This document shows positions 3,134-64,000 of a stretch of DNA of 64,000 bases, piece after piece. The notes under the pieces were generated by a model that saw only the letters and a program-made list of their open reading frames with translations, ran no database searches and was not told the origin of the DNA. Where the stretch lies: contig NC_056000.1 in NCBI RefSeq assembly GCF_018446385.1, forward strand, positions 35,687,511-35,751,510, written 5' to 3'. This DNA comes from Zingiber officinale. Lineage: Eukaryota > Streptophyta > Magnoliopsida > Zingiberales > Zingiberaceae. Each line of letters starts with the position of its first letter. The first letter of the stretch is position 1. Made by a program: the position numbers and the translations under genes.

Positions 3134-3164
3134 CACTACAACAAAATCGCTCATAGACATCAGT

Positions 3165-7678: not shown

Positions 7679-7854
7679 TTTGGTAACTTTATGTATGGTT
7701 TATATATGTGACTATTTACTTTATTTTGGTAACTTTGGTTCATTGTTTGGTAGTAGTTTTTTTTAAATATACGAATGTTTACTTTGTTGTGATTTTGAAT
7801 GATATGCTCTGCTCTATTTCAAATTCTCACTGTTATGATTAGGTTTTCGACACA

Positions 7855-12845: not shown

Positions 12846-13059
12846 GACAGTTGTACCTTAATGTGTTAACAGAATGTTATACTTTGATTTTGATATCTAT
12901 TAGCTAGCTTTTGATGTAAAAAGAATGTTTGGGGTATTTTATGGATATTATTGTTGTAAGAAGATTATTTATATAATTTGTGAATATTTGTGTATTTTAT
13001 GGATATTATTGAATGAAGAATATTTGTACAATATGTGAATATTTGTGTATTTTTTTTTG

Positions 13060-13374
13060 TTATTGTCGGTTTTAAAATCAAATCTGTGCTGTTAGAAAAA
13101 ATACATATTACATCGGTTTTCCACCGTTATAAAGTAATATTACATCGGTCATTTACCGCTGCCAAAACTGGTGTTATTAACATACAATATTACATCGGTT
13201 TTACACCGTGTATGAAACGGTGTCGTTAAGTGATACTACACCGGTTAATAACCGATTCGAAAATCGGTGTCGTTAAGTGATACTACACCGGTTTTAACCC
13301 GATGTCTAAAATGGCAGACTTTTAACATCGGCTTCATAGACATCGGTCGAAAATCAAATAGACACCGGTGGAAA
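13060..13374 (+). repeat. Right subterminal repeats of CACTA element 1
   Basis: Dense array of 'acatcggtttt', 'acaccggttt' and their complements, several spaced by 30-50 bases around 'gtcgttaagtgatactacaccggtt'. It mirrors the left subterminal zone. Confidence 0.75.
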
Positions 13375-13405
13375 ACTGATGTCTATGAGCGATTTTGTTG
13401 TAGTG

Positions 13406-42300: not shown

Positions 42301-42949
42301 AATATATCAATCAGTAGATGAAAACTCTAGGGTTTTACCACAAGTAGGCACAGATGAAGGACCTTAGGATATAGTTGTGAAATAGATAGTTGTCTTGAGG
42401 TTGTAGGACCACCAATGAAATTTGAGTCAAATGGATTAGGACATTGAATATCAAAATGTCCAATTTCGAGACAAATTTTACATTTTACTCGAGACCAATC
42501 AAGTCTTTTAGGGCATATATTTCCAGTATGACCAACAATGTGACAAATCTGACATTGGTCTAAACTTTGCTTTTGACCTCTTTGTTGTCATTGAGTATTT
42601 GACATCTAAAGTAAAAATAACTTGTCCGGCGGCAGCTGTTGGACAACACTACAAGAAAATCCTCATTCAACAACACTCAAATGACAACGGTTTTAAGCCA
42701 AATCGTTGTTGTTTTGCCTTTTAACAATGGTTTTAACAAAAATCGTTATCTTTTAGCAGTATTTTTTTGGCCTACAACAACGTTTTTTAAAAATTATTGT
42801 CTATTTATGCTTTTTTGGGGCTACGACAATGATTTTTAAAGGCTACGACAACAGTTTTTAAAAATTGTTGTCTATGTGCACTTTTTTGGGATTACGACAA
42901 CGATTTTTAAAAATCGTTGTCTATTAAGTGATGTTGAATACCTGTGTTT

Positions 42950-43440
42950 TTCTTCCTTCGCCGTTTTTTTCCCTTCGCCTTTTTTTGCCACCGCTTTTTT
43001 TCTTTCCCTCTCCTCGAAATTTTTTTTCCGCCGCATTCCTCCTCCCTTTACCTTCTCGAAGATCCCTAAGCATTTCTGCCCCCTTTCTCCTAGCCAACTA
43101 TTCCCCTGACCTCGACCTCCCTACCACCGACCTTCGCGCCGTCTCCAATCATCGCTCACCATCTTTCTTCCGCTGTCCCGTCTCCGCCCCCAGGCACCTC
43201 CCGGCTTCCCTAGCCTCCTCCCTCCACTCCTTCTCCTGTGACACCTCCCTCCGCCGCCTCACCAGTGTGTGGCTCTTCCGCCTCCAGAACCTCACCAACC
43301 TCTTCATTGTCGGCGCCCCCATCTCCACCAGCGGCCTCGCCGTCGTCCTCTCCCAGATGCGACGCCTCCGCCCGGAAGAATCAAGCTTTTTGGCCGTCGT
43401 CATCTCCACACTATTTTTTTTGCTGATCCGATGCAATTTT
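42950..43440 (+). pseudogene. Unidentified GC-rich exon-like fragment in CACTA element 2
   Basis: Proline/serine/leucine-rich open frame from 42928, with leucine-rich-repeat-like spacing around 43,255-43,370 (LTSVWLFRLQNLTNLFIVG, then SGLAVVLSQMRRL). I cannot name the source gene. The strong C-richness contrasts with the AT-rich surroundings and suggests a captured first exon. Confidence 0.4.
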
Positions 43441-43444
43441 TGCC

Positions 43445-43490
43445 ATGAAACGGGGGAAATCGAAGACAGATGCGTCCAAGAAGTCAGAAC
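43445..43490 (+). pseudogene. HMGB first-exon fragment
   Basis: Reads MKRGKSKTDASKKSEQ, the basic N-terminus of plant HMGB2/3-type chromatin proteins. It stops within a few codons. The matching HMG-box exons appear only 2 kb later (45473-45711), with SEC3 exons in between. Confidence 0.55.
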
Positions 43491-43600
43491 AAGTGGTTGC
43501 TCATTCATGCTAGTATTTGTCACATCTTTTCTCCCTTGGAATTCTACTAAGCCTTTTGCTGAATCTTGTTAATGATTTCCTTCTGCCGCATTTTCTTTAG

Positions 43601-44975
43601 GGATTTGATAATCTTAGAAACCAAAGTGTTGCTCCTCCTCAGTGGACAATGAGAAACAAAGATGACAGGTGATTGCCTCCCAAACTACTTTGCGTCAGAG
43701 ATGGATACAAGGATATGCTCTATAAAGAATGCACTTATTTATTCATTTCCTCTTGCAGGAACCGCATACTTCTATGCATTTTAAACATGAGCATGTCTTC
43801 CAAAAGTTGTTAGGATAGACATAGTGGAGATGGCTCTCTGGGCAAAGGTGTACCTCTTAATTTGTCTCATCTGACCTTTATATATATGCATATGAATATG
43901 TGAATACAAAGACTAATGGGTTTTATTATTGTCTTAAGATTTATAGTGTTCTTTATATGTGAAGTTGTACCATGTTGCAAATTCAAGACTAAATATTAGA
44001 TTAGGAATTAGGCTAGTATTTATCAAAAAAAAAAAAAAATGGAAAAAGCTTTGAATTGTAGCTACTTTGGCAAAGTATCTTATTCATCCTTTTCTAACCA
44101 TCTTCCATCAAGCACGATAGCATAAGAACTGCTCTTGTTTATCCTGAGCTTGAAACTGTTGTTGTCATGCAATCGTTAGAACTTTAAATTTTAATGTTTC
44201 TTCAGTTGAAGTTGCACAAATCTTACTTCTCACTCTCTCCTTTTTATGTGCAGTTTAGTGTAGAAAAGGTTTTTAACAACCATTCTGCTAATTTTATTCA
44301 GTGCATATGATTAGTGAACACGATGTTTGAATATAGGCATTGGATGTTCTATACCTGTACATAGTCTACTGTGTATGTAAACCAAAGCCAAAAAAATGGG
44401 AAAATAAGTTATTATTCTGCTACAGGAAAATAATACTGTAGTAAGAAGTCAAGTTATTACTCATGGTGGGCAAGACGCATCTGGTTTGATTCAAGGTCAC
44501 TCACAAGTTACTGTCGAAAGAGATCTTGTTTCACAAGCTGAAGAAGAGGACATGGAAGCTCTCCTTGGCACATATGTTACTTGATTATGTTTGAATTATC
44601 ATGTAAAAGTCATGCCTAGCATGCAGATATGCATCTTTGATACTTTCGTGATGCTTTTTGTTGCTCAGTGAAACAGAGCATTTAATCTGATGTGTTTTAT
44701 TTTTCTTTTCAAACTAACCTTCAGGTGTTTGTTTTCCAATATATGAATTTGTACCTCCTTTATCTTTTGATAATTTTTTTACTTGCATTATGTCCATAAT
44801 GTTCCCTCTGATATTCATACTTATGCCATGATTCACACACAAGATATTCTGATGCAGGTATGCTATGGGAATTGGTGAAGCGGAAGCATTTTCAGAAAGG
44901 TTAAAGAGGGAACTTCTGGCTTTAGAAGCAGCAAATGTTCATGCACTTGTTGAATGTGAATCCATAATAGAGGAG
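43601..44975 (+). pseudogene. SEC3: SEC3 (exocyst) gene fragment, four exons
   Basis: Exon pieces: 43601-43668 (FDNLRNQSVAPPQWTMRNKDD), 43759-43847 (NRILLCILN, then after a frame change LPKVVRIDIVEMALWAK), 44426-44575 (VTVERDLVSQAEEEDMEALL) and about 44858-44975 ([20 protein letters not shown], then [17 protein letters not shown]). These are consecutive parts of the N-terminal half of plant SEC3 (EXOC1), a subunit of the vesicle-tethering exocyst at the plasma membrane. Introns are retained, so the copy came by DNA, not RNA. A small deletion in the second exon breaks the frame, the fourth junction is poor, and both ends of the gene are missing. It is not a working SEC3. Confidence 0.85.
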
Positions 44976-45472
44976 GTATTGCTGGTCTTGATATTCTATA
45001 GTTCAATTTTATACGCCGAGTCATTAGCAAGGTCTCTCCAACTTTAGATTTCAGTTTGTTGAAAGCATTATTGTCTGCCCTAGGTCCTTTCCTGGAAGCT
45101 CATGCTTTTGGGACAGGTGATCATTTAATTTGGTCAGTTTCTATTTTTTTTATTAAAAAAATATATGTCCAGTTATGTTAGCTCATATATTGGGTTGACC
45201 AATCAGGTATGGGATATGGTCGGTTAATCAACTTTAATAAATTTTATTCATGTACGTTACAGTCTAGGACTACTTGTTTGGATATATGCAACCTTCTGCC
45301 CCATAAACTCCTTTCGTGACTTCAATATGATAGGCAAAATCTTTACTTACTTCTCATGATAATTGATGTAATGATAACAAATCTGTCACTGTCGTAAGGT
45401 TGCTCCTTCCTTTAGTTCTACTTGTTTCAGCGTCTGTAGATTGGTTTAAATCAACTTTTATCATTTGATTAG

Positions 45473-45711
45473 CTTGGTAAAGCAGGTGGCAATAAATGGA
45501 AATCACTATCGGAAGAAGTTAGTGCTATTTGTTAATTAGTTCTTATTTACCAGACCAATCTTCCTGCTTTGAAGAGGAAAATGAATTAGTAATGTTTTTT
45601 TTTAATCTGAAATTTCTTTCTGTGTTCCAGGATAAAACTCCTTATGTTGCTAAATCAGCTACATTGAAGACGGAATACACCAAGAAATTAGCTATGTACA
45701 ATAAGAATCAG
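45473..45711 (+). pseudogene. HMG-box exon fragments (HMGB)
   Basis: Two exon pieces. About 45473-45520 reads LGKAGGNKWKSLSEE and 45631-45711 reads DKTPYVAKSATLKTEYTKKL and AMYNKNQ, followed by a GT donor. These are the second half of the HMG box of plant HMGB proteins, DNA-bending chromatin factors. The first half of the box is missing. With the start fragment at 43445 this suggests one HMGB gene split by SEC3 sequence. Confidence 0.8.
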
Positions 45712-45936
45712 GTTTATCATCTCGCAAGTCACTTATTTTCCATCAATTTGATAATAATTAAACTGATTGTTCTCGTCATTTGATAATCATAACCTTATAG
45801 GTATATAACTGAGAGATTTTTTTTTCTTTCGTTTTGCAGACATTGAGTGTTGTCCTGGAATTTTGGAAATCCTTCTCTCATGTCCAGACATTAGAGCTAT
45901 GTGAAATTTTTATTCTCTAGTTACAGTTATTGGGAC

Positions 45937-45941
45937 AGAAA
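45937..45941 (+). repeat. Possible target duplication AGAAA of the SIRE-like element
   Basis: The five bases outside the LTR edge at 45942. The partner copy would lie beyond the other end of the element, which is not seen in this window. Confidence 0.3.
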
Positions 45942-46439
45942 TGTAGCTAGAGGGAGGGGGGGAGGGGGAGGAGGGGGGGGGGGGGTGAATAGCTCGTCGC
46001 GTGCTAGGTGCTCGTTGTAGCTTGTTTCTTCAGAAATACGCAGCGGAAAATATAGAAACAAACTACACAATGCTAACAAGGAGGGTTTACTTGGTATCCA
46101 CCTCACAAGAGGTGACTAGTCCAAGGATCCACACCTACTCACGCACCCTCCACTATGAAATCACTCCTTTTCGGTAACTACCGAAGGCGGAGAAGCCCTA
46201 CAATTTCACACTACAAGAAGAAAGGGAAATGATACAAAATACAGCACAAGCTTACAAGGAAACCCTAATCCTAGTTTTCTTCTTCAGCTGTAGATCCGCC
46301 TCTTGACTTGGAAACCCCCCAAGAACCTTTAAGATCTGGCGATGAGAACTTTGTGGAGAAGCTTTGGAAGCCTTGTGAAGATCTGAGATGAATGTCGTAA
46401 GTTCTGCTGAAGGAATCGAACGCCTGCAGCTAAATACGA

Positions 46440-46790
46440 CGTCAACGGTCGGATCCCGATCGATTGGATTGCTCCCAATCGATCGGGGAGGCTTTGGATT
46501 GATCCACTGATCAATCCAGAGTGCCTCTATGCTCTTGGGAAATGCCTGGATCGATCAACGGATCGATCCAGGGCTTATCGCGATAAATCGCAGCTTCCCA
46601 ATCGATCCACTGATCGATTGGGGCCTCTGGATCGATCGGCTGATCGATCCAGCAGGCTTCTGTGCGCTCGCGACTGCCTCCCAATCGATCCACTGATCGA
46701 TTGGGACAAAGGCTTCTCGCGGGGACTCCCAATTGATCAGCCGATCGATTTGGCTCCAGCCAATCGATCGGCTGATCGATCCAGCTGCTA
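46440..46790. repeat. Array of GATCGAT-centred palindromic units
   Basis: About ten units of the form 'ccaatcgatcNNctgatcgattggg' in direct and inverted arrangement, each able to fold on itself. Related units recur at 50,815-51,000. Confidence 0.8.
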
Positions 46791-47089
46791 GTTTTTGCCC
46801 AAAACTAAGTCCCAAGCCCCTCAAACCAACATCCGGTCAACCTTGACCTGTTGATACATCATGCCTAGCATCTGGTCACCCTTGACCTGCTAGGACTCCC
46901 TCACCAAGTGTCCGGTCAATCCCTTTGACCCACTTGGACTTTTCCTCATCATGCCAAGTATCTGGTCACTCCCTTGACCTACTTGGACTTTTCTTCCTCG
47001 TGCCAAGTATCCGGTCAATCCCTTTGACCTACTTGGACTTTCACCAGATGTCTGGTAAACCTTGACCCATCTGGATTTCCCCGTGCCTG

Positions 47090-47460
47090 GCTTCACTCAC
47101 CAGGACTTCCTTTCTGCCTAGTTTCACTCACTAGGACTTTCTTTTGCCTGGCTTCACTCACCAGGACTTTCCATCTGCCTAGCTTCACTCACCAGAACTT
47201 CCAACTGCCTAGCTTCACTCACTAGGACTTTCACCTAACTTCACTCACTAGGATTTTCTTCTGCCTGGCTTCACTCACCAGGACTTTCACCTAGCTTCAC
47301 TCACTAGAATTTTCTTCTGTCTGGCTTTACTTACCAGGACTTTCACCTAGCTTCACTCACTAGGACTTTCACCTGGCTTTACTCACCAGGATTTTCTCAC
47401 TGCCTAGCTTCACTCACTAGGACTTCCACCTGGCTTCACTCACCAGGATTTTCTCTCTGC
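47090..47460. repeat. Tandem array of 'gcctggcttcactcaccagga' units
   Basis: Roughly thirteen degenerate copies of a 26-30 base unit alternating 'cctagcttcactcactagga' and 'cctggcttcactcaccagga'; each is an imperfect palindrome. It follows a second set of about 45-base units with 'aagtatccggtcaatcccttt' (46,900-47,050). Confidence 0.8.
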
Positions 47461-47704
47461 TTAGCATCCCAGTTAGGACTTCTCAGTCAAGTATCTGGTC
47501 AATCTTGACCTACTTGATTCTTCTTCAACCAAACCTGATCAAGCCCTGATCAGTTGAGAATTGCACCAACAATCTCCCCACATGAACAACTGCACCTGCA
47601 TTGTTCATGTGTCGTCTGCATGTATTGGTAAACATCGAAACCATGATCAAGACTCAAGCTTGGTCAACTAGGTCAACCTTGACCTAAGAGATATTGCTCC
47701 AACA

Positions 47705-48208
47705 ATCTCCCCCTTTTTGATGTTTGACAATACCTTTAAGTTAGGCTAGTCCCATAGCCTCAAACTTCTTTCTCATGCCACTAGGTAATGAGGGCGTAAC
47801 TTACAACCTACATTCTCCCTCTAAGAAGGCAGACTCTCTCTTAGATAATGAAGGTCTAACTTAAACCCTACATTCTCCCCCTATTGACACACATCAACAA
47901 ATTCACTTGTTGAAAACTCTCCCCTTTGAGACTCTTCCCCTGAAGAGTTGCTCATCGTTGTTCACAACTTCACTCGTTGTGATCAACACGATAATGAAGG
48001 TCTCATACCCTTCATTTATCCTTAACCCTACATTCTCCCCCAATGTAGACAAATGCCCAACCTTGAGCATTTATAACTTAAACAATGAAGATATCCACTC
48101 TCCATTGTAATCCAATGCTCAACCTTGAGCATTTTTACTAAAGAAGGTTAACCACCTTCTAAGGTATATGAAAAATAGTTTTCATGTCCTTAAAGAGTAC
48201 CTCCCCCT
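47705..48208 (-). other. Internal sequence of the SIRE-like element (3' part)
   Basis: Noncoding in appearance, with repeated 'accctacattctccccct' and 'aatgctcaaccttgagcattt' phrases. It continues at 50543 after the solo LTR. Confidence 0.55.
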
Positions 48209-48460
48209 TGTAACGACCCAAATTTCCTCAATTAGAGTCCTAAAAGTACTTTAAAAATATTTTAAAATGCTATAGAAATATTCTAGGGTTTTTTAGAAAT
48301 TTTTAGAGTATTTTTATGTATTTTTTGGAGGTCGTTTGGTATTTTTACTAAACAAAGGAAGTTTCGACAAAAAAATGTCCAAGCCGAGAATTGAACCCAC
48401 GACCTTTGACTCGATCAAAACCTAGCTGACCAGGTGGGCAAACGGATTTTTCTATTTAGA

Positions 48461-48775
48461 AAAGGTAGCGAATTTATTTAAGATAGTTAACAGAATATTG
48501 GATTATAAAAGGGATAAGTTGATCTTGGATTTGTTTGTTTAGAAAATGTAGCGAATTTATTTAAGATAGTTAACAGAATATTATAAAAGGGATAAGTTGA
48601 TGTTGGATTTGTTTGTTTAGAAAAAGTAGCGAATTTATTTAAGATAATTAACAGAATATTGGATTATAAAAGGGATAAGTTGATGTTGGATTTGTCTGTT
48701 TAGAAAAGATAGCGAATTTATTTAAGGAGTTAACAGAAATATTAAGTTATAAAAAGGGATAAGTTGATGCTCTGT
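48461..48775 (+). repeat. Tandem array of about 80-base units in the solo LTR
   Basis: Four copies of a unit containing 'tagcgaatttatttaagata', 'gttaacagaatatt' and 'aaaagggataagttgat', at about 48,465, 48,545, 48,625 and 48,710. Confidence 0.85.
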
Positions 48776-49007
48776 TTTTCCGTAACTTAAACCATTCTCT
48801 CCTTCTCTTCTGCGTACGATGGCGGAGCTCGGGCAGAAAATGAAAGGGAGTTAGGGCATTATCTCCGGCGGCCGACCAAAGTCCTAGAAGCCCTTTTTGT
48901 TCGGTTGTGAGTCCAAGAATCAAGGTAAGTGCTTCTCACCTGCAGTAGGAGTAGTTTCGGACCTTTGTTCTTCTTGAATTCGAAGCATAAGAAGCGCTTA
49001 TAGTGCA

Positions 49008-49380
49008 GATTTTTAATTAAGCCTTTAGTGCAGATTTTAATTAAGCTTATAGTGCAGATTTTTATGTAGGCTTATAGTGCAGATTTTAATTAAGCTTATA
49101 ATGCAGATTTTTATGAAAGCTTATAGTGCAGATTTTAATTAAGCTTATAGTGCAGATTTTAATTAAGCTTATAGTGCAGATTTTAATTAAGCTTATAGTG
49201 CAGATTTTAATTAAGCTTATAGTGCAGATTTTTAATTAAGCTTATAGTGCAGATTTTTGTTAAGCATTAGTGTGCAAAATTTTATTAAGCTTACAAGTGT
49301 AGATTTTATTAAGATTATAATGCAGATTTTTAATAAGCTTGAATGCAGATTTTGATTAAGCTTATATGCAGATTTTTGTT
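49008..49380 (+). repeat. Tandem array of about 25-base units in the solo LTR
   Basis: About fourteen copies of 'taattaagcttatagtgcag' followed by 'attt', most regular in the middle and decaying at both ends. Each has the palindromic HindIII-like core AAGCTT. Confidence 0.88.
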
Positions 49381-50542
49381 TAAACATTTCAGTTTTTAAA
49401 GAAGCATTCTTTTATTAGAAGTATTAACAAGTATAAGAAAGATAAAGAAAAGAAAGAAAAGGCCAAGGCCTTAAGTAGATCCTAAAGTCAAGACTTTAGG
49501 GATTTTGGCACACAAGGTGCTAAAGAAAATGTCGAGACATTATATATTAGAAGTATTAAAAGATAACAAGTATTTTACTTTTATCAGTGGCACTGTACTG
49601 GACTCTCAGTTGTCCTTGGGTTGGGCTCCCATAGTCGTCCCTAGGTTTAGATAACCTAGTAGTAACGGCACGATCGACGGTCGATCGTCGACGACTCGAG
49701 GGTCGCCAAATGGGCCGTCAAATGGGTCGGGTCGTTACAATAGTAAACCCTACTAGATTCGGGACCAGTTATCTCGGGTCTAGTTAGGGATGCGCGCATA
49801 GCAAGTACAGCTGCCGGGCCCAAGAAGAAAGTTGATTATTATTTTGAAGTATTATATGTATAAGTTTTTGAACAAGTAAAGTAAGTTTTACATCAGTATA
49901 AAAGTATTAAAGAAAAAGTTTTTAAACAAGTGAAATAAAAGAATAAGTTTAGAACAAATGAAATAAGTTTCATTTTGTTTTAAAAACAGCAAGTTGAGTT
50001 TTCTTTTATGCTAGCATGTTATTTAGATTAGCTTATTGTTCTTTGCTATTAGAAGAGCATGAGTAGCTTTACATGTTTAGCATTTCAGTATGTTTGTTTC
50101 TTTTACTAGTAGATGAGCATGAGTAGTTTTCCTTTTGAGCATTCAGTTTTAGTTTTCAATATATGTACATGCATATCGAGATTTTGTGAGTTAGATAGCG
50201 CTTACTAAGCAATTTTGCTTTTAGATGCATTTCCTCTTACTGCAGATAAAGGAAAGGAAAAGCTATAGTAAAGGAAGGCGACAAGGAGGTGCGGATGGAT
50301 GTGTGATGCCTGGACTATAGAAGCCTTGGGATTTAGCATAAGAATTTATTAACAAAGAGTTGAGTAGAATGTATTAGATGAGTCATTTAGTCTTCCGCTG
50401 CTAGTTAATTGTATGTTTTGAGTTTTTTAGAGTTTATATATTGATCTTTACATGTGAACAACTCTAATTAAGTAAAGTTAGTAGTCCAGTAGCGCTCCGC
50501 CCTCACAGTCCAGTAGTGAGGAGGGTGGGGTGTTACACCCCT

Positions 50543-51096
50543 AAAGACATGGTCGTACCTTCTGTCATTGCACCAACAATGACTTGGAATCCCTAAACCT
50601 TTAGGAAACCCAAATTTAAAAGTTTTGAGGTTCAAAAGTTCAACATATGAATCAAACCTCAACCTAAACTTCAATTTAATCTACCTTAACCAATCCATCA
50701 TTATTTTCAATATGAAAATACCCTTTTTGTATATACAAATGTATTTTGAGGGGTTAGGAATGGTTACCTAGAGTAAACTTGGTTTGGAATGCTGAAATCA
50801 GGCTTTCCCAGCCAATCAGCTTCCTCAATTGATTGGAGTTGGGTCCCAATCGATCGAACCAGCTTGAATCGATCCACTGATCGATTCAGGAGGGCTGGAT
50901 CAATCGGTGGATCGATCCAGGAAGCTTCTGTTCGCGAGAAGCTTGCTCTCAATCGATCGTCCGATCGATTGAGCCCTTCAATCGATCGGGTGATTGATTG
51001 AGGTCTGATAGTTGTTGAAATTTCATTTTAGTCAACTTCAGAAACCCCTAGAAAATTCTAAAAATCATAAAAATTCATGTAGACATTATTTAGGGT
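50543..51096 (-). other. Continuation of the SIRE-like element beyond the solo LTR
   Basis: Noncoding; 50,815-51,000 carries GATCGAT units like those of the LTR at 46,440. It ends where the third CACTA end begins. Confidence 0.5.
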
Positions 51097-51114
51097 CACT
51101 ACAATAAAAACATT

Positions 51115-51425
51115 AAAAGACAACGGTTAAAAATCGTTGTCGTAGGCCCTTTAAAACCGTTGTAATTGGCAGTGTTGTTAAAAGTGGGGGGCTACGATAA
51201 CGGTTTTAAACCGTTGTCTTTGACTGAAAGACAACAGTTTTACAACGGTTTTAAATAGTTGTCTTTGAATGAAAAGACAACGGTTTAAAACCGTTGTTGT
51301 TTAGAGTATTTTTTTAATAACATTGCCCGTTACAATCATTTTTGGGGCTACGACAACGGTTTTTAACCGTTGTCTTTGAGAGTGATAGACAACAACAACG
51401 GTTTTAAACTGTTGTCTTTTAAATT
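51115..51425 (+). repeat. Subterminal inverted units of CACTA element 3
   Basis: Eight or more copies of 'acaacggttttaa' / 'ttaaaccgttgtc', several as hairpins. Equivalent to 42,680-42,925 in element 2. Confidence 0.75.
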
Positions 51426-52029
51426 ATTATCTTTAAATACCAATATATTATATTTCAATATAAATATATAATAAAGAATCATAATCACAAAAGAAAGAAT
51501 ATTCTCCACATTAATGTCATTCAGAATGTTGCTTTTACAAGAATTATAATCACAAAAGAAGAAACATGTCTCATGTTTAAATAAAAATTAACTCAATACA
51601 AATAAACAAATAAGTTCCATTTACAACTAATGAACAATAGCCAACTAATGAACAAGTCCCATCACAATCTTCAACTTGTAGGATTTCATTGAACTCTTTT
51701 TTTTTTTCACTTGCTGATTCTTTTATACCAACCTTTTTCAATATCATTGATCATCAGTTCCATAATAAATCCAGTCTTCCTCACACTAGCTCCATCAAAA
51801 AGTTCAATCTTTCCACCCCTTTGACAAGGCACCAGGAGATCAACAATCTATTGATATCAAAAGAAATACACTATTATATGTATGAAAAAACTTGTTCTGA
51901 AATATGCGTTTACCATTGTGTTGGAAAAACTTAGCAGTTATATGGTAATTCCTGATATGAGCTATATAGAAAAGTCAATCAGTTAATTTGGACCCATAAG
52001 TTCTTATTTTATCTTTCTAGTTTATAAGC

Positions 52030-52180
52030 AGTGAAAAGAGATGTTGTTCTTTCAAAGAACCGTTTGAAGGCTGTAGCAACGACGTGCCGCTGTTGGACAA
52101 TGAGTGCTTCGGCTTCTGGCCACCGTCGGAGCAGGACGTAATGGCGAAGTTTGAGTCGCTGCAATTGCCGTGGATGTAAT
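52030..52180 (+). pseudogene. Unidentified GC-rich exon-like fragment (plus strand)
   Basis: One frame reads KEPFEGCSNDVPLLDNECFG, then FWPPSEQDVMAKFESLQLPW, M and a stop. The composition and reading look like the last exon of a host gene, but I do not recognise the family. It is inside CACTA element 3. Confidence 0.35.
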
Positions 52181-52240
52181 ATATTCCAAAAATCTACGTC
52201 TAATCAGTGAATTAATGACAGTGTATGTGCAGTATATGAG

Positions 52241-52242
<2 letters not shown>

Positions 52243-52271
<29 letters not shown>
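52243..52271. repeat. AT microsatellite
   Basis: About 14 AT repeats in the interior of CACTA element 3. Confidence 0.9.
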
Positions 52272-52379
52272 CTTAGATAAGAAACAATAAACATCACTAA
52301 GGAGACCCCAAAAAACTTTAAAATAGAAATGCTTTACTTACAGAACTCAGTTATCTCTTCTCCATCGTAAGACTTTCTC

Positions 52380-52832
52380 TTATAAGATAACTGCTGATCT
52401 TTTCCTTTGACATGGTGGACTAGCATTTGGCATCTGTTGAACTTTATTATATAAACAAATAGAAGGGACCAAGTTACAGATGTGTAATGAAGCCTTGTTG
52501 ACATGAGATTTGTCATCCGTCTCATGTACCTCTTTGGAGCCTTTCAAACCACCATATGATTCATTTAAACCCTTTTTCTTTTTGATGTAAATGTCTGCTC
52601 CTTGAGCTCTATCTCTAGCTTCCTCAACCTTACTAGGAAGCTCGCGAAAGCTTCCGTAAGAATTCACCAATCTATCAGCTGGAAAACAGTTGATTGTAGG
52701 AACCACTGTCAACGGAGTGCTAAGATAAACACCCTCCATACAACATGAAGCATTTTCATATTGCAATGGCTGAGCCACTGTTGCATTTGCTGATGGAATA
52801 CAATCTGCAAGCATTAAAATATCAATCATCAC
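52380..52832 (-). pseudogene. Unidentified exon-like fragment (minus strand)
   Basis: 150-codon frame containing SYGSFRELPSKVEEARDRA and YIKKKKGLNESYGGLKG, then LHICNLVPSI. It reads like one or two joined host exons with intron sequence at the edges. I cannot name the gene. Confidence 0.35.
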
Positions 52833-53611
52833 TACCTAGGTCTGTTGTGTGATCATGATGCATCTATAAAGAGTAAACTAATACTGCCTCCATGAACTCT
52901 TGAGAAATCATCATCAGAATCAGATTCCAAGATACTAACAGAATCAAACCATGCATCTTCCTGGCTGATCACTGTAAAGAAGCGAAATCAAGAAATAAAA
53001 ATGTTGTGTCTTTACCTCTCTGAACCACTAGCATCCATCTGAGTGTGATGCCACTACAACTGAGTGAGATGGACTATCATATTAGAAGCATTGTGTTAAT
53101 AGAGAAGCTTCACCTTGTATATACAAATACATTTTTTGTTAAAAGGGAAAAGAATAAATATGACTTGGCATTTGATACTTATTAAATGATGTAAACACAA
53201 TCTTGTGACATAATAGACTAGTACACAGTTTTTCTTAGGAAATAATAGCATGTCATGATGTTATTTAAATTCCATCCAGAACTCATATACTGATCCCCTA
53301 GTGCTCATACCTTCGCAGAGGATCACTCTTTGAGAAAGCCACTACTGAAAATCCCAGTGTCAAAATCAGCACCATAAAGAACCTAAACAACCAAAGTTAG
53401 CATATGAGTTAGAGTTCTACCTGGCTGCAGGTTCTGGTCAAAACCAATATATGAATAAAGTTTCTAATATTAAGGTATGGAAACAACAAAGGTTCAAGGA
53501 AAGAAGAAAGTGGATACAACACATCAAAGTTGTGAAGCCAAATTGTGAAATAAATCAACAGATGAAAATGCATAATGATTATGTATGTCTGCAAAGGAAA
53601 TGTGGTGGCAC

Positions 53612-53897
53612 CTCAATCTCTTCTGTTGGCCTTTCCACTATCCGCCAATATTCACCTTCAATATCATCATCGGAAGGTTCTTGTTGGCAGGACCCTAAAA
53701 CAAATTCTGCACTTCTGCTAAAATATTGTCTCTTGAACTCATCTGCATACGTCTCAAAAGATTCCATAGTGAAATTTGGACCAGGTACAAATCCAAACCT
53801 CTCAACATTGTTACAACAATTAGATTCTGCCTTATCCTCTTCATTGGTATTCTCTATTTTAAGGGTCTTTCTTCTTCCCCTCATAAAGATATGACTT
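53612..53897 (-). pseudogene. Exon of a KDM5/JMJ14-like histone demethylase
   Basis: Minus-strand exon with an AG acceptor at 53898-53899 and a GT donor after EEIE. It reads [27 protein letters not shown] and [19 protein letters not shown], the conserved stretch before the JmjC core of plant H3K4 demethylases of the JMJ14/15/18 group, preceded by a basic region. Next to it (53,900-54,100) one would expect another JMJ exon, but a KCBP exon is found instead. Only a fragment; no JmjC core is visible. Confidence 0.8.
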
Positions 53898-53976
53898 CTG
53901 CACAAAAAAGAAGAAACATAACCCACAATATGTTTTAACTAACCCCTCACTTATTAATTTCTAAAATGATTGTCCA

Positions 53977-54100
53977 GGTAACAGACCTATAGGATCATCT
54001 ATCTTCCGTACACTGAAGAAAACAGAATTCCCATAAGGAGGAGTTCTCAAGATTCTAAAAAATTGCTGTTTAGCATCATCTTTTGACAAGTGTTCTTGCA
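53977..54100 (-). pseudogene. Exon of the kinesin KCBP (MyTH4-FERM region)
   Basis: Minus-strand exon reading HLSKDDAKQQFFRILRTPPY and GNSVFFSVRKIDDPIGLLPG, the FERM-domain stretch of plant kinesin-like calmodulin-binding protein (ZWICHEL). The acceptor AG is at the start; the donor at the other edge is lost or displaced. KCBP is a minus-end-directed microtubule motor. This is an isolated piece, not a working gene. Confidence 0.8.
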
Positions 54101-54189
54101 AGAAAGCACAAATATAAATAAGCAATAAGAGATAATGATAAATATTAGATAAAGAATATTTTGCCAAGATCTTTTTTAAGAATATAGAA

Positions 54190-54480
54190 GTGTGTTACTT
54201 GATTTACAATCAAGTCAACAGCCTTCCTAGCCACCTCTGTGTTTACTGGGAATTGATTCCCATGAAAATTTGACCTTCTCTTTGCAAGCACACCCTCAAC
54301 ATCGATGGTTAACAATAGATTAACAAATGTACAGCATAAACATCATCTAGAAAAACACAGTATACTAGTTATATATTACCTGTCTAATTGAAGATTTGGA
54401 ATCCATGAATCCCTGTAGCACGGTGTTACCATGGGAAGGATTCCTATTCTGAAAGCCTTGGTGTTTAATCTAAAGTCAAA
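54190..54480 (-). pseudogene. Further exon-like pieces, source unknown
   Basis: About 54,380-54,475 reads FQNRNPSHGNTVLQGFMDSK then SSIRQ before a GT donor. About 54,190-54,310 reads VEGVLAKRRSNFHGNQFPVN and TEVARKAVDLIVNQV. Both have exon-like borders on the minus strand. The source genes are not recognised; they may or may not belong with KCBP. Confidence 0.35.
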
Positions 54481-54487
54481 GAATTTT

Positions 54488-56840
54488 TGTTGGTTGCTAC
54501 TCGGAAAACCTAGAGGTTCCACTGTACAAAAATTTTGTACAAAGGTCTGAACCTTTTCCTAGCTACCATGTGTTCTTTTAAATTAAATTTTGGATCGCCT
54601 GCGGAACTTAACACGTTTGATCCAAAACTTAATCTATTCGTTCTTTTAGGTTTTGACTTGGGTCTCCTGCGGAACTTAACACGTTCGACCCAAATTACCT
54701 TAAGTTATTAATTCCATTAAATATTAATTTTCATAATTGGTTCCCAGTACTGACGTGGCGAGGCACATGACCTTCTTGGATATGGGAGCAACTACCACCG
54801 ACTAGACAAAACCTTTTATAGAAAGCTAATATTTAATTTCCTAAAATAACTTTAGGTTAACCAAAAAGAACAATCAAATCACAAGGAAAAAATAAAATAA
54901 AAGAACACAACTTCGAAAAACATATTCGAAATACTAGAACGTAAGCCTCTTGTATTTGGTATTATTTCCATAAATAACTAGTATGATGCGGAAATAAAAA
55001 TTACTAGTTATACCTTGTAGAAAAACCTCTTGATCTTCTATCGTATTCCTCTTCTAACCTCGGACGTTGTGTGGGCAACGATCTACCGAGATGAGAAACC
55101 ACCAACCACCTTCTTCTCCTCCAAGCAAGGTTCGGCCACAAAGGAAGAACTTCACCAAAGAAGAAAACCAAAATACTAACCAAGCTCCAAGAGATGCTAA
55201 CTTTCTCTCCTTCTTCTTCTTCTCCAAGTAGTATCCGGACCACAAGAACTCTAAGAGGGATGAAGTATTCGGCCACCACAAGAGGAAGAGGGAGAGGATG
55301 ATGGCCTGCCACAGCAGGAAAAGAGGAGAGAAAACAATAGAGGTTGTTTCATGAGCCACCCTCACCCCTTCTTTTATATTCCTTGGCCTAAGCAAATTAG
55401 GAAATTTAATTACAATAAAATTTCCTCAATTTCCTGTCATGATTTAATTGAAAAATAAAATAAAATTTCCCCAATTCAATCTCATGGTCGGTCACATCGT
55501 TGGAGAACAAATTGGACAAGTTTTAATCAACAATTAAAACTTCCTAATTTGTTCGGAAATTTTAAAAATAAAATTTCTCTTTAAAATCTCTACATGGTTA
55601 ATAAAAGAAATTTTCATAATTTTAATTTTACAATATGTGAATAATTTTTAAAGAAAATAAAATATCTCACCGATCTACAAATAAGGAAAGAGATCAAATC
55701 TCTTTCTTTAATCTTTGTAAATTTTACAAGAGAGATAATTTTAATTTAAATTCTCTTTAATAAATTATTTCTTCCACATAATAAAAATTAAATTAAAAAT
55801 TCTTTTTAATTTTATTTTGGCGGCCCTACTAGCTTGGGTTCAAGCCCACCCAATCTTATACCTAGGCCGGCCCTAGCTTGTTCCCAAGCTAGCTTGGCCG
55901 GCCCCTATTGAGTGGGTATAGAAGGTGGGTATAGGTGGGTATAGAACTCTATAACTAAGAGGCTACGATAGGGATGAGAGGAGGAATTGGTTTTGGTCTC
56001 CGATAAAATTAAGCATCCGTGTTCGCCCCGAAACACGACTTAATTTTATCAATGATAGTCATTCCACTAGAGAACTATCATTGAACTACCGCACAAATTC
56101 AAATTATATTTTGGGCTCCTTCTTATTATGAGTGTGTTAGTCTCACGTGTTTAAGATATCGAATGTCCACTAATTAAGTGAGTCAACGACAACTCATTTA
56201 ATTAATATCTAAGTCGAGTAGTACCACTCAACCTTATCGTCGTATCGGACTAAGTCCACTGCGGGGTTTAACATGACAATCCTTATGAGCTCCTCTTGGG
56301 GACATTATCAACCTAGTATCTCTAGGACACGGTTTCCTTCTATAATCAACAACACACACTATAAGTAATACCATTTCCCAACTTATCGGGCTTATTGATT
56401 CATCGAACTAAATCTCAACCATTGATAAATTAAAGAAATAAATATCAAATATATGTGCTTGTTATTATATCGGGATTAAGAGCACACACTTCCATAATAA
56501 CCGAGGTCTTTGTTTCTTTATAAAGTCGGTATAAAAGAAACGACCTCGAATGGTTCTACTCAATACACTCTAAGTGTACTAGTGTAATTATCTGATCAAG
56601 ATAAAGCGATACCTAATTACACTACGACCTTCAATGGTTTGTTCCTTTCTATTTTGGTGGTGAGCTCTTGTTTATAATTTATAAAGTCGATAACATTATT
56701 TTGCGTGTGACACCACAGTATGTTATCTGATATAAATTAATTGAACAACTCTGAACAAATGTAGATAATTTGACGAAATGTGATTCTTTATTCAAGACAA
56801 ATGTTTACAAAAATTTAGGCTTTCGGTATACACTCCAACA
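54488..56840 (-). repeat. 3' LTR of the minus-strand Copia element
   Basis: 2353 bp. The pair copy begins at 61778. Its protein-like readings (for example around 55,004-55,395) occur equally in both LTRs and have no family motif, so they are not genes. Confidence 0.88.
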
Positions 56841-59800
56841 ATCTCACTTATACTAATGACTAAGTTGCCATATCTTCTACCATACTGATTCCCATTCCTC
56901 CACATGTCGATCAAAGCTTTCGTGGGAAGGGCCTTAGTGAAAGGATGCCGGGTTATCTGCTGATGCGATCTTGGCGATGACAACTTCTCCTCGCTTGCGA
57001 TATCTCGTATCGGGTGGTACTTGCGCTCTATATGTTTACTTGCCTTATGAGCTCGTGGTTCCTTCGAGTTTGCAACTGCATTATCACAATAAATTGTGAT
57101 AATTTTGGGCAAACCAGAATCACATCTAAGTCCATTAGAAAGTTCCTGAGCCATACTGCTTCTTTAGTTGCCTCGGAGGTGCCACATACTCGACTTCCAT
57201 GGTTGAGTCTGAAACGCATTTCTACTTAACACTCCTCCGTGAAATGGCTCCACCTCCTAAAGTAAACACATAGCTTGATGTAAACTTACTGTTATCCTGA
57301 TTGGAAATCTGAATCCATGTAACTCACAGGGAGCAGATCGTCTACTTGGTAAACTAGCGTATAATCTCTTGTCCTTCTCGGTACTTTAATATATGCTTTA
57401 CAGCAGTCGATGTCCTTTTCCAGGGTTACTCGATATCTGCTGACCATGCCCACGAAAGCAGATATCCGGTCTCGTACATAACATTGCATACATTAAGCTT
57501 CCTACAGCCGAAGCATAAGAAACTGTCTTTATGTCCTACTCCATGTCTAAAAGATAAGAAACCTTTCTTGGAATCCTGCATACTAAAACGAGCAAGGATT
57601 GTATCTATATATGAAGCTTGGGGACAGACACAACATTCTTTTCTTACGATCCCTTATAACTTTGATCCCAAGAATGTGTGCACACTCTCCTAAGTCCTTC
57701 ATATCAAATTGTTTGGACAACCATACCCTTACGTCTGATAATACCTTGACATTGTTGCCAATTAACAAAATATCATCTACGTATAGTACAAGAAATACCA
57801 CCACGTTTCCGTTACACTTCTTGTATACACAAGACTCATCCGGACACTGAATAAATCCATATGACTGGATTACTTCATTAAACCGGATGTTCCAAGATCT
57901 TGAAGCTTGCTTCAGTCCATAAATGGACCGATTGAGCTTACACACTAGATGCTCTTTGCCCTTTTCAATGAACCCTTCTGGTTGCTTCATATGGATGTTC
58001 TCTTCAAGACTTCCATTAAGGAAAGCTGTCTTGACATCCATTTGCCAAATCTCATAATCCATATGAGCAGCAATGGATAAGAGTATCCGGATAGACTTAA
58101 TCATGGCCACTGGTGAAAAAGTCTCCTCATAATCGATTCCCTCTTTCTGAGTGTACCCTTTCGCAACAAGCCTAGTTTTGAAGGTTTCTACCTTCCCGTT
58201 TATCCCTCTTTTCCTTTTGTAGATCCACTTGCATCCAACGGCTTTTACACCATCGGTGGTTCTACAGCTCTCGGACCTTATTAGAGTACATAGACTCTAT
58301 TTGAATTCATTGCCTTTTGCCAAGATGTTGCATCTATATCTTGGAGTGCTTAAGTCATATGTTCGTGGATCGGGTTCATGTTTACCAGGGATCAAGTCGA
58401 AGACTCTCCCAAAATATGAATCTTTCGGTGCCTCACAACCCTCCCACTACGACGAGACACTGCGTGGTTGTGTATCATGCGTAACACGTGTTGCGGTCTC
58501 TTGTGGTACTTCATCTTGTACTTTTGGTGCTGAAGTAGACATGTCCTCTCTAAGTTCTTCTAAAACAACTTTCTCTTGGGCTTGTGATCCATTATATAGT
58601 CTTCTTCTAAAAGCGGGCATTGGTGCTAACAATGACCTTGGTCTTTAGGACTATAAAATAAACCACCTTTCGTTCCTTTGGGATATCCTACAAATCGCGA
58701 ACTTCATGCGGGATTCTAACTTATCGATCTGGTTTGACATGTCTTGGACTACCCAATCCGAATATGTCTTAGGTGGGCTTTCGCCCATTCCACATTCTAT
58801 GGGAGTAGAAGAAGCGATTTAGAAGGTACTAAGTTCGAGCGATATCTTCTTTGTTTCAGGCGTATCCCAAGCAATTTGGTAATTCTGAATAACTCATCAT
58901 TGATTTAACCATCTCCATAAGAGTCTATTCCTTCGTTCGGCTACACCATTCTGTTGGGGTGTTCCAGTGGAGACAATTGGGATTGAATCCGACCTCGATA
59001 AGTAATTCCTAAACTCTCCTAAGAGGTATTCGCCACACGATCGTAGTAGTGTCTTGATACTTTTACCTAGTCGTTTCTCCACATGACCTTGTATTCTTTG
59101 AACTTATCAAAGCACTCGGACTTCGGCGCATTAGGTAAATGTATCCATATCTTGAATAATCGTCATGAAAGAGACAAAATATTCAAAACCTCCTCTTGCA
59201 GACGGACATAGGACCACACAAATCAGAGTGAACCAACTCTAACACTTCTTTGGCTCTATACCCCTTGGCCTTGAACGACCTCTTGGTCATTTTACCTTCC
59301 AAGCAAGATTCACAAGTTGAAAAATTTTCCAACTCAAATGAACTCAAAAGTCCATCGGCTATAAGCCTCTGAATCCTACTTAAGTTAATATGACCAAGCC
59401 TTAGATGCCAAAGATATGCTTGTTTCATTTCCGAAGGTTCTTTTCTCTTATTAGAGTTAGAAGATGAGTTATAAATTTCCATGTTTTGCTTTGTAGAAGA
59501 AATTGGATTTAAAATATACAAATTGCCAACTAATGTACCAGAACAGATAATCATTTTATTTCTTTTAATAACTACATCGTTACTGAAAGAAACTGAATAT
59601 CCATCTAAAAACAGTTTAGAAACTGAAATTAAATTCTTTCTAAAACTGGGTATATAAAGACAATTTCTTAAAATCAAATTTCTATTTCTACTAAAAGATA
59701 AGTAGACGTCTCCCACTGCAACAGCTGCCACCTTAGTAGCATTGCCCATGTAGACGGTAATTTCTCCTTCAGATAGTCGTCGGGTTTCCTGGAACCCCTG

Positions 59801-59983
59801 CAAGGAATTGCAGACATGATCAGTGGCTCCCGTATCTACACACCAGGTGCTGGTAGATAACACCGCTAAACATGTTTCAACAACTAGAGCATGAGATATA
59901 CCTTTGTTTTGGTTCCTACGAGGACGATCCGCCTTCGATGTCCCCACGCTTATAGATGAAGCACTTGCCCTTGACTTCTTCAT
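56841..59983 (-). pseudogene. Decayed Copia pol (protease, integrase, RT, RNase H)
   Basis: From the 5' side on the minus strand: protease (STWCVDTGATDHVCNSLQGF, near 59,850); GAG-pre-integrase (LWHLRLGHINLSRIQRL) and integrase start (ELVHSDLCGPMSV, near 59,200); integrase piece with TPQQNGVAERRNRLL (near 58,930); reverse transcriptase (58110-57583, [28 protein letters not shown]); and RNase H pieces down to 56,850 (IIYCDN-like ITIYCDNAVANSKEP, then a KALPT end). Deletions, frameshifts and stops separate the pieces. The reverse transcriptase catalytic YVDD is intact, but the gene as a whole is not. Confidence 0.85.
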
Positions 59984-61763
59984 TCCATCTTTAAATCCCG
60001 TACTCGAGATTTATTCACTTTCTTTGTTGAACCGACTTGTTTCTTTTTCTTCTTTCCTTCGGTTTAAGTAGAACCATTTTCGTAGTGAATTTGAGCGTTG
60101 TGTGAAATAATCCTTCTGCTTGAAGTTACATCGGTGGTTCCGCTAAAGAATAAACCCTCTTATTCATATTATAGTTCAAACCGCTCAAAACTTCTAGGTA
60201 GCGTTTGGAGGATCATATCGATCTGGGTTTCCCATCAATTTTCCTCAAGGATCCGTATCTCGTTCGGATAAGCCATCGTCTTTAGGATATGATCCCTTAC
60301 GGAGTACCCTCTTGCATGGTGGTGTCGTTATCTTTCTTATGGCTTCTTGCCTGAAGCCCTATCATGACGAAAGAGTTCCTTGAGATTGTTCATAATATCA
60401 TTGGCTGTGGTAAATCTTGATGTTGCAATACATTTGACATTGAAGCGAAATGTAACACCGCCATCTCATATGCTTTTACCCATTTCTATGATATTCAATC
60501 TCCTCTTGGGTAGATTCACGATGGGTGCATCGAGCCTTTTCGATCGATCATATTTATAGCTTTCGTGATGAGAACAATGTCGGTTTCTTTTCCAATCTAT
60601 GTAGTTTGGTCCAATAAGTGTATTTTTCAGTATGATGGACGATCGGTTGAAAGTCATCCTAAGATTCACAAAAATAACTTTGGTCGGGACTCTAAATTTA
60701 GAATAATATTGATTCCTCAAACACTACTATTTTAAATTAACCAACACCTTAAAACACCGTGAATTTTGTATGCCACGATAGTGTGGACGTATATAAATTC
60801 AACATTTGTAAAAGAAGGGTGTAACCCATTAATTTTATTATCTTGTCAACCTAACTTTTTGACAAATACAATTAATAGTTGGTTTCCTTCAGTCATACAA
60901 ATAATAGCAGTGACTCCGATGGGGAGGATACTATTAGACGTGCCTAAGTGTATATCATTACTTGACACTAAGTCCATTAATAAGATTGTGCCCCTTCCGA
61001 TGGGGAAGAACACACGCTCTTAATTAATTTCCTATAGTCATCCAAAATGGAAGTTTGATCTAGTGATCCGCTAACAAACTCATCCGATATGGAAGAAAGC
61101 ACTCAGAGCCAACACGCAAGTTTGTTTGCATCACTTACAAACCAATAATGGAGACCGTGGAATTTATTAAAATAAATCCCTCTCCCACTTAGTTATTTAA
61201 AGTGAGGAATTTTAACTATGCTAGCCTACTAAACATGTATATTAACATGCACACACAGCATAATATAAAAGCAATAAATAGAAAATCTAATTTTCAACTA
61301 TTATGGCTTTTATTTATAGTTGTCCTCCGTGTGTTGTCATCCCAAGCTGCTGCCATATTTGGCCACCGCCACCGGGTCTAGCTGTCGCATCCATCTTGCT
61401 CCTTGTTCTGCTGCGCCTCTGGTCCTCAGAAGGTTCCACGCTTTGCAAGATTCGATCCGCGACATAAATAGAATTTTACATTTTTGATCCTATATTCCAT
61501 AAAAGGAATGTACATGTATCTAGATCAAAAATAAAATCCTAATAAAACTAAATACAGCTCCTGCTGTATTTTAATACAATCATGCACACACATATAAATG
61601 CCCTTGACATGTCCAAGGGTCCAATCACACACATAATAACTAAAAGCCATAATAGTTGGATCCTGCATCCACAAAGTTAGCACATCCTACTATTAACTTG
61701 CCTAAATTATGTATGACATGTGCATAATTAAACTAATACCAAATACACAGAGGCAAAACCCTA
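59984..61763 (-). other. Decayed gag and leader region of the same Copia element
   Basis: Only short minus-strand frames remain (for example 60720-60466, with KVIFVNLRMTF). No clean gag domain or zinc knuckle can be read. The region ends at the primer binding site. Confidence 0.5.
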
Positions 61764-61777
61764 GCTCTGATACCAAT

Positions 61778-64000
61778 TGTTGGTTGCTACTCGGAAAACC
61801 TAGAGGTTCCACTGTACAAAAATTTTGTACAAAGGTCTGAACCTTTTCCTAGCTACCATGTGTTCTTTTAAATTAAATTTTGGATCGCCTGCGGAACTTA
61901 ACACGTTTGATCCAAAACTTAATCTATTCGTTCTTTTAGGTTTTGACTTGGGTCTCCTGCGGAACTTAACACGTTCGACCCAAATCACCTTAAGTTATTA
62001 ATTCCATTAAATATTAATTTCCATAATTGGTTCCCAGTACTGACGTGGCGAGGCACATGGCCTTCTTGGATATGGGAGCAACCACCACCGACTAGACAAA
62101 ACCTTTTATAGAAAGCTAATATTTAATTTCCTAAAATAACTTTAGGTTAACCAAAAAGAATAATCAAATCACAAGAAAAAAATAAAACAAAAGAACACAA
62201 CTTCGAAAAACATATTCGAAATACTAGAACGTAAGCCTCTTGTATTTGGTATTATTTCCATAAATAACTAGTATGATGCGGAAATAAAAATTACTAGTTA
62301 TACATTGTAGAAAAACCTCTTGATCTTCTATCGTATTCCTCTTCTAACCTCGGACGTTGTGTGGGCAACGATCTACCGAGATGAGAAACCACCAACCACC
62401 TTCTTCTCCTCCAAGCAAGGTTCGGCCACAAAGGAAGAACTTCACCAAAGAAGAAAACCAAAATACTAACCAAGCTCCAAGAGATGCTAACTTTCTCTCC
62501 TTCTTCTTCTTCTTCTCCAAGTAGTATCCGGCCACCACAAGAACTCCAAGAGGGATGAAGTATTCGGCCACCACAAGAGGAAGAGAGGGAGAGGATGATG
62601 GTCGGCCACAACACCAAGGAAAAGAGGGAGAGAAAACAATAGAGGTTGTTTCATGAAGCCACCCTCACCCCTTCTTTTATATTCCTTGGCCTAGGCAAAT
62701 TAGGAAATTTAATTACAATAAAATTTCCTCAATTTCCTTGTCATGATTTAATTGAAAAAATAAAATAAAATTTCCCCAATTACAATCTCATGGTCGGCCA
62801 CATCATTGGAGAACAAATTGGACAAGTTTTAATCAACAATTAAAACTTCCTAATTTGTTTCCGGAAATTTTAAAAAATAAAATTTCTCTTTAAAAATCTC
62901 TACATGGTTAATAAAAAGAAATTTTCATAATTTTAATTTTACAATATGTGAATAATTTTTAAAGAGAAAATAAAATATCTCACCAATCTACAAATAAGGA
63001 AAGAGATCAAATCTCTTTCTTTAATCTTTTGTAAATTTTACAAGAGAGATAATTTTAATTTAAATTCTCTTTAATAAATTATTTCTTCCACATAATAAAA
63101 ATTAAAATTAAAAATTCTTTTTAATTTTATTTTGGCCGGCCCTACTAGCTTGGGTTCAAGCTAGGGTCGGCCACCCAATCTTATACCTAGCTTGTTTCCC
63201 AAGCTAGCTTGGCCGGCCCCTATTGGGTGGGTATAGAAGGTGGGGGTATAGGTGAGTATAGAACTCTATAACTAAGAGGCTACGATAGGGACCGAGAGGA
63301 GGAATTGGTTTTGGTCTCCCGATAAAATTAAGCATCCCGTGTTCGCCCCGAACACACAACTTAATTTTATCAATGATAATTCATTCCACTAGAGAACTAT
63401 CATTGAACTACCGCACCAATCCCAAATTATATTTTTGGGCTCCTTCTTATTATGAGTGTGTTAGTCTCCCTGTGTTTAAGATATCGAATGTCCACTAATT
63501 AAGTGAGTCACTGACAACTCATTTAATTAATATCTAAGTCCAAGAGTAGTACCACTCAACCTTATCGTCATGTCTGTCCACCTGCAGGGTTTAACATGAC
63601 AATCCTTATGAGCTCCTCTTGGAGACATTATCAACCTAGTATCTCTAGGACACAGTTTCCTTCTATAATCAACAACACACACTATAAGTAATACCATTTC
63701 CCAACTTATCGGGCTTATTGATTCATCGAACTAAATCTCACCCATTAATAAATTAAAGAAATAAATATCAAATATATGTTCTTGTTATTATATCAGGATT
63801 AAGAGCACACACTTCCATAATAACTGAGGTCTTTGTTTCTTTATAAAGTCAGTATAAAAGAAACGACCTCAAATGGTCCTACTCAATACACTCTAAGTGT
63901 ACTAGTGTAATTATACAGTCAAGATAAACTGATACCTAATTACACTACGACCTTCTAATGGTTTGTTCCTTTCCATTTTGGTCGTGAGCTACTGTTTATA
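61778..64000 (-). repeat. 5' LTR of the minus-strand Copia element (partial)
   Basis: Begins exactly as the 3' LTR copy does at 54488 and follows it to the window end, about 130 bases short of the full LTR length. Confidence 0.88.

Follow-up and report, generated by a model that had tools for sequence, protein, structure and literature searches.

A 64,000-nucleotide stretch of the ginger (Zingiber officinale) genome, C15:35687511-35751510 (hereafter the window), holds a copy of a non-autonomous CACTA transposon of the Pack-CACTA type, in which the first coding exon of an HMGB gene, exons of the exocyst gene SEC3 and further HMGB exons follow each other as cargo. The structure of the element, the identity of the SEC3 donor and the order of events, namely the entry of SEC3 into an HMGB fragment already aboard, can be given with considerable confidence. 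The anatomy of the element also makes it rather probable that the SEC3 piece was copied in during the repair of a double-strand break or gap. The ginger assembly, described as haplotype-resolved with 11 chromosome pairs and 3.09 Gb before scaffolding (PMC8342452), was searched with the window element (3.09 Gb, 211 contigs); 30 matches were obtained and all 23 candidates were scored. The parts of the window copy, which as described before are all on the plus strand, are the following.

42647..42659, plus strand: left CACTA terminal inverted repeat, exact match to CACTACAAGAAAA
42660..42951, plus strand: left subterminal repeat array, units like ACGACAACGATTTTTAAAAATCGTTGTCTAT, repeats located at 42761-42951
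42990..43424, plus strand: coding-like stretch with a 214-residue frame, LRR-like by eye only
43425..43489, plus strand: HMGB 5' part, made up of bases upstream of the ATG (43445, with MKRGKSKTDASKKSEQ) and a first coding exon of about 45 coding bases
43490..43512, plus strand: last 23 bp of SEC3 exon 3, left SEC3 junction at 43489/43490 (comparison with the donor gene)
43601..43668, plus strand: SEC3 exon 4 (comparison with the donor gene)
43759..43847, plus strand: SEC3 exon 5, with a 14-bp deletion found in the window copy only (comparison of copies and donor)
44426..44571, plus strand: SEC3 exon 6, whose splice donor reads AT instead of GT in the window copy (comparison of copies and donor)
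44858..44975, plus strand: SEC3 exon 7 (comparison with the donor gene)
44976..45372, plus strand: first part of SEC3 intron 7, to the end of SEC3 homology (comparison with the donor)
45373..45393, plus strand: last bases of HMGB exon 3 (comparison with the HMGB gene)
45473..45517, plus strand: HMGB exon 4, LGKAGGNKWKSLSEE (Pfam and comparison with the HMGB gene)
45631..45711, plus strand: HMGB exon 5, DKTPYVAKSATLKTEYTKKLAMYNKNQ, HMGB homology continuing to about 45780 (Pfam and comparison with the HMGB gene)
45781..45928, plus strand: further element sequence, 148 bp, present in all nine other element loci (comparison of copies)
45929..64000, strand not given: part of the stretch that splits the element (whole stretch C15:35733439-35757656)

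The preliminary description of this DNA, made from the letters of the window, had placed four consecutive SEC3 exons (43601-44975) between an HMGB-like N-terminus and HMG-box exons with an intron (45473-45711), behind a CACTA end and its subterminal array. This order was confirmed; the limits of the parts had to be shifted, since SEC3 begins at 43490 with the end of exon 3, and HMGB resumes at 45373, not 45473.

The donor of the SEC3 sequence is an intact gene on C7 (L016, 163.41 Mb) with its allele on C8 (L017, 140.96 Mb), the two being 97.9% identical over 9.5 kb; both had been taken for element copies at first and turned out to be the donor gene. Joined with the adjoining match L029, the C7 allele encodes 861 residues in 25 exons, all introns being GT-AG, in a model predicted from sequence in which one intron was placed so as to preserve the frame, and the protein contains the Pfam domains Sec3_C-term, Sec3_CC and Sec3-PIP2_bind. 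Only this allele was read to its end, while the C8 allele was checked for 13 exons: 12 were recovered by search word and the thirteenth is present with a one-base difference in the word. The captured piece measures 1.88 kb (43490-45372); it starts 23 bp before the end of exon 3, includes exons 4-7, which coincide with the four SEC3 exons of the window, and runs about 400 bp into intron 7. This stretch is all that the donor alleles have in common with the element, and neither of them contains HMGB sequence or CACTA ends. Two further candidates were rejected as parents. The C17/C18 sequences match in exons only, with 56% protein identity in the exon 6 piece, and represent a second, more distant SEC3 locus, while C90 (84%, in two places) contains broken SEC3 pieces.

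The HMGB parts were compared with the HMGB gene at L024, which reads by eye as intact and encodes a 155-residue product with an HMG box. The HMGB sequences on both sides of SEC3, including the N-terminus at 43445, are collinear with this gene, and the SEC3 piece stands in place of everything from HMGB intron 1 to most of exon 3. When spliced, the two HMGB exons at 45473-45517 and 45631-45711 match the Pfam HMG_box family (E 3.8e-8). A relic of HMGB exons 4-5 was also observed on C9 (L022, 138.82 Mb) and C10 (L023, 128.50 Mb); it is 83-88% like the cargo and its homology fades near the start of the 3' HMGB part of the element.

Since the HMGB flanks are collinear with one HMGB gene and SEC3 forms one uninterrupted stretch between them, HMGB was aboard first and SEC3 entered later. 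The preliminary description had offered two histories, the capture of SEC3 into an already captured HMGB fragment or the rearrangement of two captures; the first is supported by these observations. It had also held that the finding of the intact parent genes as neighbours in the same arrangement would speak against capture. The SEC3 donor is on C7/C8 and the intact HMGB gene on C4, that is, on different contigs.

The SEC3 donor and the L024 gene, the latter taken as a stand-in for the HMGB donor, overlap by the five bases CAAGT at the left SEC3 junction. No CACTA end or other CACTA sequence is present at either SEC3 junction, and no footprint was found in exon 3 of the donor, which is unbroken in both donor alleles, the comparison covering the ginger alleles alone. 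The CACTA-free junctions together with the undamaged donor exon favour copying during break repair over mobilisation between neighbouring insertions. The events may be pictured as follows. A break or gap would have arisen in a non-autonomous CACTA element that had an HMGB gene fragment on board, and would have been filled by copying SEC3 from another chromosome, as in abortive gap repair with a template switch; this gap filling would have deleted the HMGB sequence from intron 1 to most of exon 3. A short burst would then have carried the SEC3-bearing version to nine sites or more, presumably by means of transposase from other CACTA elements, and one daughter lineage would later have exchanged its 5' cargo for a kinesin-like fragment.

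A different origin is offered by the model of tandem insertion and re-mobilisation of Gisby and Catoni (after Catoni 2019), according to which two neighbouring CACTA copies flanking SEC3 would have moved as one. For other Pack-TYPE elements this model has support (PMC8903248), and related CACTA copies do nest in the present family (L018, TCC/TCC). However, the SEC3 borders are formed by HMGB sequence on both sides and not by CACTA arms, and the donor exon 3 lacks a footprint in either allele, so that such an origin appears unlikely here. Equally little weight can be given to a fusion of HMGB and SEC3 elsewhere in the genome, followed by the capture of the ready-made chimera. It would agree with the behaviour of the closest HMGB relative, the C9/C10 relic, which loses homology near the start of the 3' HMGB part of the element; but none of the 30 matches contains an HMGB-SEC3 junction outside the CACTA copies, and the C9/C10 sequences lack a SEC3 match just as the donor gene lacks an HMGB match.

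Several observations weigh against the entry of SEC3 by repair into an HMGB-bearing CACTA element. The right SEC3 junction is ambiguous, with 0-4 bp shared. An HMGB-only precursor copy was not found, no dedicated search for one having been completed. The preliminary description had called for both intact parents; the exact HMGB donor was not among the matches. The nearest stretches, on C9/C10, are relics with 83-88% identity in pieces, and the intact gene on C4 shows a similarity of only about 70%, so that the junction overlaps were read against a stand-in. The scheme accounts neither for 42990-43424 nor for the piece after 45780. Finally, as a target duplication the flanks of the window copy (CAA / TGA) do not match and those of L014 (AAG / AAA) match only partly.

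Element sequence was found at ten loci (the window, L009, L010, L011, L012, L013, L014, L015, L018 and L019), which correspond to nine sites, L010 and L011 being allelic (96% over 9.5 kb). Six of them (the window, L009, L010, L011, L012 and L018) have the full HMGB-SEC3-HMGB order. In L013, L014 and L015 a kinesin-like piece precedes SEC3 exons 5-7 and the HMGB part, and L019 is cut off at the left, beginning at window position 44258. The whole of 43445-45711 is matched by four other loci at 95-96% and by a fifth, C6:35.44 Mb, in two parts at 96%, which is beyond a chance arrangement. Six of the nine other loci (L009, L010, L011, L012, L014 and L018) share homology from base 42647 onwards, and in all nine it extends to 45928. 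The remaining matches are the donor alleles L016/L017, the C90 SEC3 pieces, the C9/C10 HMGB relics, the C3/C4 HMGB loci and the C17/C18 SEC3 locus. The proposal that gene fragments were captured by a CACTA element is supported.

The element has the properties of the CACTA superfamily: terminal inverted repeats starting with CACTA, a 3-bp target duplication and subterminal arrays at both ends. The left CACTACAAGAAAA is exact in six of the seven loci having a left end, L009 deviating from it. The right end was detected in six of the ten loci (exact in L011, L012, L015, L019 and the window copy, with 2 mismatches in L014); it is lost in L010 and lies outside the examined stretches of L009, L013 and L018. 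Right ends, on whose existence in other copies the earlier reading had been made to depend, are thus present. Complete copies are about 5.15 kb long (5,149 bp in L012 and, calculated from its end coordinates, 5,150 bp in L011), and in these two, out of the four copies with both ends seen, the target duplication is ATT/ATT. The second subterminal array is in the right arm of L012 at approximately 6230-6620, where GACAACGG and CCGTTGTC units are repeated as judged by eye. No TNP2-type transposase was found in the complete copy L012, and since it has no frame above 163 residues, the element was classed as non-autonomous. Being such, and carrying host gene fragments for which the SEC3 donor and a related HMGB gene are found in the same genome, it conforms to the Pack-TYPE definition. 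The L012 segment 5268-6240 of the right arm is common to a large CACTA family (the best 40 of 1170 candidates were scored); therefore the right arm is not cargo peculiar to the family studied here.

All ten element copies group together, to the exclusion of the donor alleles, in the tree of the SEC3 part (support 100); its internal branches are short and poorly resolved, which indicates one capture and a subsequent burst. The distance to the majority sequence of the element copies is 0.9-1.9% for the copies, and 2.1 and 2.7% for the donor alleles. At the ginger retrotransposon rate of 1.3e-8 substitutions per site per year (PMC8342452), and assuming equal rates, the burst would date to roughly 1.1 and the capture to roughly 1.5 million years ago; both values double at the 6.5e-9 used in the other ginger genome paper. 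Between the donor alleles, 1 of 435 exon sites (exons 4-7) and 34 of 1448 intron sites (2.35%) are different, which is the pattern to be expected from a gene under constraint. The element copies diverge by 2.67% in exons (HMGB exons included) and by 2.91% in introns, and the cargo is decaying without detectable constraint. Between element and donor the values are 1.34% in exons and 4.36% in introns, in agreement with exon change on the element side only, and the SEC3 codons of the element copies show 11 synonymous, 34 nonsynonymous and 2 stop changes relative to the donor.

The copies L013, L014 and L015 form a clade of their own (support 100). In L014 and L015 a piece of about 2 kb, which includes a kinesin-4-like first exon, stands in place of the segment corresponding to window 43299-43747, and L013 retains the right 1.5 kb of this piece. 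In this subfamily it takes the place of HMGB exon 1 and SEC3 exon 4; in L014 it is on the reverse strand (672-2660). The kinesin label is based on a weak PDB match to kinesin KIF4 (E 0.036), and no Pfam match was found for it. The kinesin version is derived, given that the other copies still have SEC3 exons 4 and 5 together with the native intron.

The preliminary description had also foreseen a potential chimeric transcript of a chromatin protein and an exocyst subunit, and this found weak support. If splicing follows the donor gene, the frame of the HMGB ATG enters SEC3 in the wrong phase in all six copies, giving products of 22 residues in the window copy and 39 in the other five. Splicing of SEC3 exon 7 to HMGB exon 4 would preserve the frame. 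A GT at 43493 is present in all six copies and, as a cryptic donor, would put HMGB exon 1 in frame with SEC3. It was considered as the native end of HMGB exon 1 and rejected, because comparison with the donor gene shows that the sequence from 43490 on is SEC3 exon 3, which has a splice donor of its own at 43513 and is out of frame. Using the cryptic site, a stop-free HMGB-SEC3-HMGB frame of 203 residues is obtained in two of the six copies, L010 and L018, while stops occur in the window copy (residue 57), L009, L011 and L012. In L010 the acceptor of HMGB exon 4 is gone; in L018 the remaining sites that were checked all have AG/GT.

A selected fusion protein is unlikely, as the exons and introns appear to decay equally. 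Thus the view that the arrangement is an expressed, selected chimeric gene and not transposon cargo, for which the in-frame passage from exon 7 to HMGB exon 4 and the open frames of L010 and L018 could be cited, is hardly credible, since four of the six copies are broken despite the cryptic site, the native sites yield short out-of-frame products in every copy, L010 lacks an acceptor and exon and intron divergence is nearly equal. A chimeric transcript or small RNAs from the element are possible. The SEC3 part of the window copy contains 1865 24-mers, and 762 of these have an exact match in the C7 donor locus, as do 199 of the 329 lying wholly within SEC3 exons. It is conceivable, if quite improbable, that copies such as L018 would be transcribed into the 203-residue fusion, by way of the cryptic site, or into SEC3-matching small RNAs, and that the family would tune the exocyst gene in trans.

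The capture of genes by plant DNA transposons is well known and its mechanism is debated; the ginger family is a further case of a known kind. Tgm-Express1, a soybean CACTA element, is a single 5.7-kb insertion in F3H for which chimeric splicing was shown by cDNA (PMC1947982). It resembles the ginger element in size (5.7 vs 5.15 kb), and its cargo likewise consists of exonic and intronic sequence from several unrelated host genes. In contrast to that one insertion with cDNA-proven splicing, the ginger element is known from sequence alone and has several dispersed copies, one of its fragments is nested in another, and its donor gene was found with both alleles. With the Pack-CACTA and Pack-TYPE elements, as presented in PMC8903248, it has in common the lack of autonomy, the terminal repeats, the captured gene fragments and the stepwise gains of the family; the model preferred there is the fusion of neighbouring insertions, whereas the ginger junctions fit copying from a distant template better. 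The Chenopodium CACTA-like elements also carry host gene pieces, but in what is given of them (PMC8978399) an 80-bp AP2 piece is situated upstream of the TAD domain in the element's own coding sequence, while the ginger element has no transposase and a compound cargo. Nothing on this element was present among the literature matches listed, and neither of the two ginger genome papers uses the word CACTA in its main text. What the ginger family offers is a surviving donor with both alleles, SEC3 breakpoints located within a few bases, a nested cargo and a later cargo swap in a sister lineage. It is therefore a clean test case for break-repair copying versus the fusion of neighbouring insertions, and for the question whether captured exons have an effect on their parent gene.

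The end of the element had been placed at 45941. This corresponds to the edge of the inserted stretch: the window copy is split at 45928 by 24,218 bp of other DNA and its right half resumes at C15:35757657, is broken a second time (about 640 bp) and terminates in TTTTTGTTGTAGTG at C15:35760148, about 8.6 kb beyond the end of the window. The window copy is thus not a truncated element. Its decay is marked by the deletion in SEC3 exon 5 and the altered donor site of exon 6. The 214-residue frame at 42990-43424 gave no Pfam family match, and its LRR reading by eye was dropped, the PDB rows (E 0.31 and 2) being no evidence. Within the 24-kb stretch a direct repeat of 94.7% identity (54487-56676 and 61777-64000) possibly represents the long terminal repeats of a retrotransposon, and the left flank of the window copy is a Ty1/copia pol region on the minus strand.

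Other CACTA sequences were observed as well. A second element is nested in the L018 copy (L018:3905-8158, TCC/TCC), its left arm being 87% like that of the studied element up to window 43075; its cargo includes exons of a homocysteine S-methyltransferase (Pfam PF02574, E 3.1e-10 and 1e-9), which indicates that the lineage captured genes more than once. Window 3134-13405 is occupied by a 10,272-bp CACTA element of a related family with CACTACAACAAAA ends, a GTT/GTT target duplication and TNP2 transposase frames (Pfam Transposase_21, DUF4218, DUF4216), a possible source of transposase. At window 51097-51377 there is a short palindromic element with CACTA ends and subterminal repeats resembling those of the studied element.

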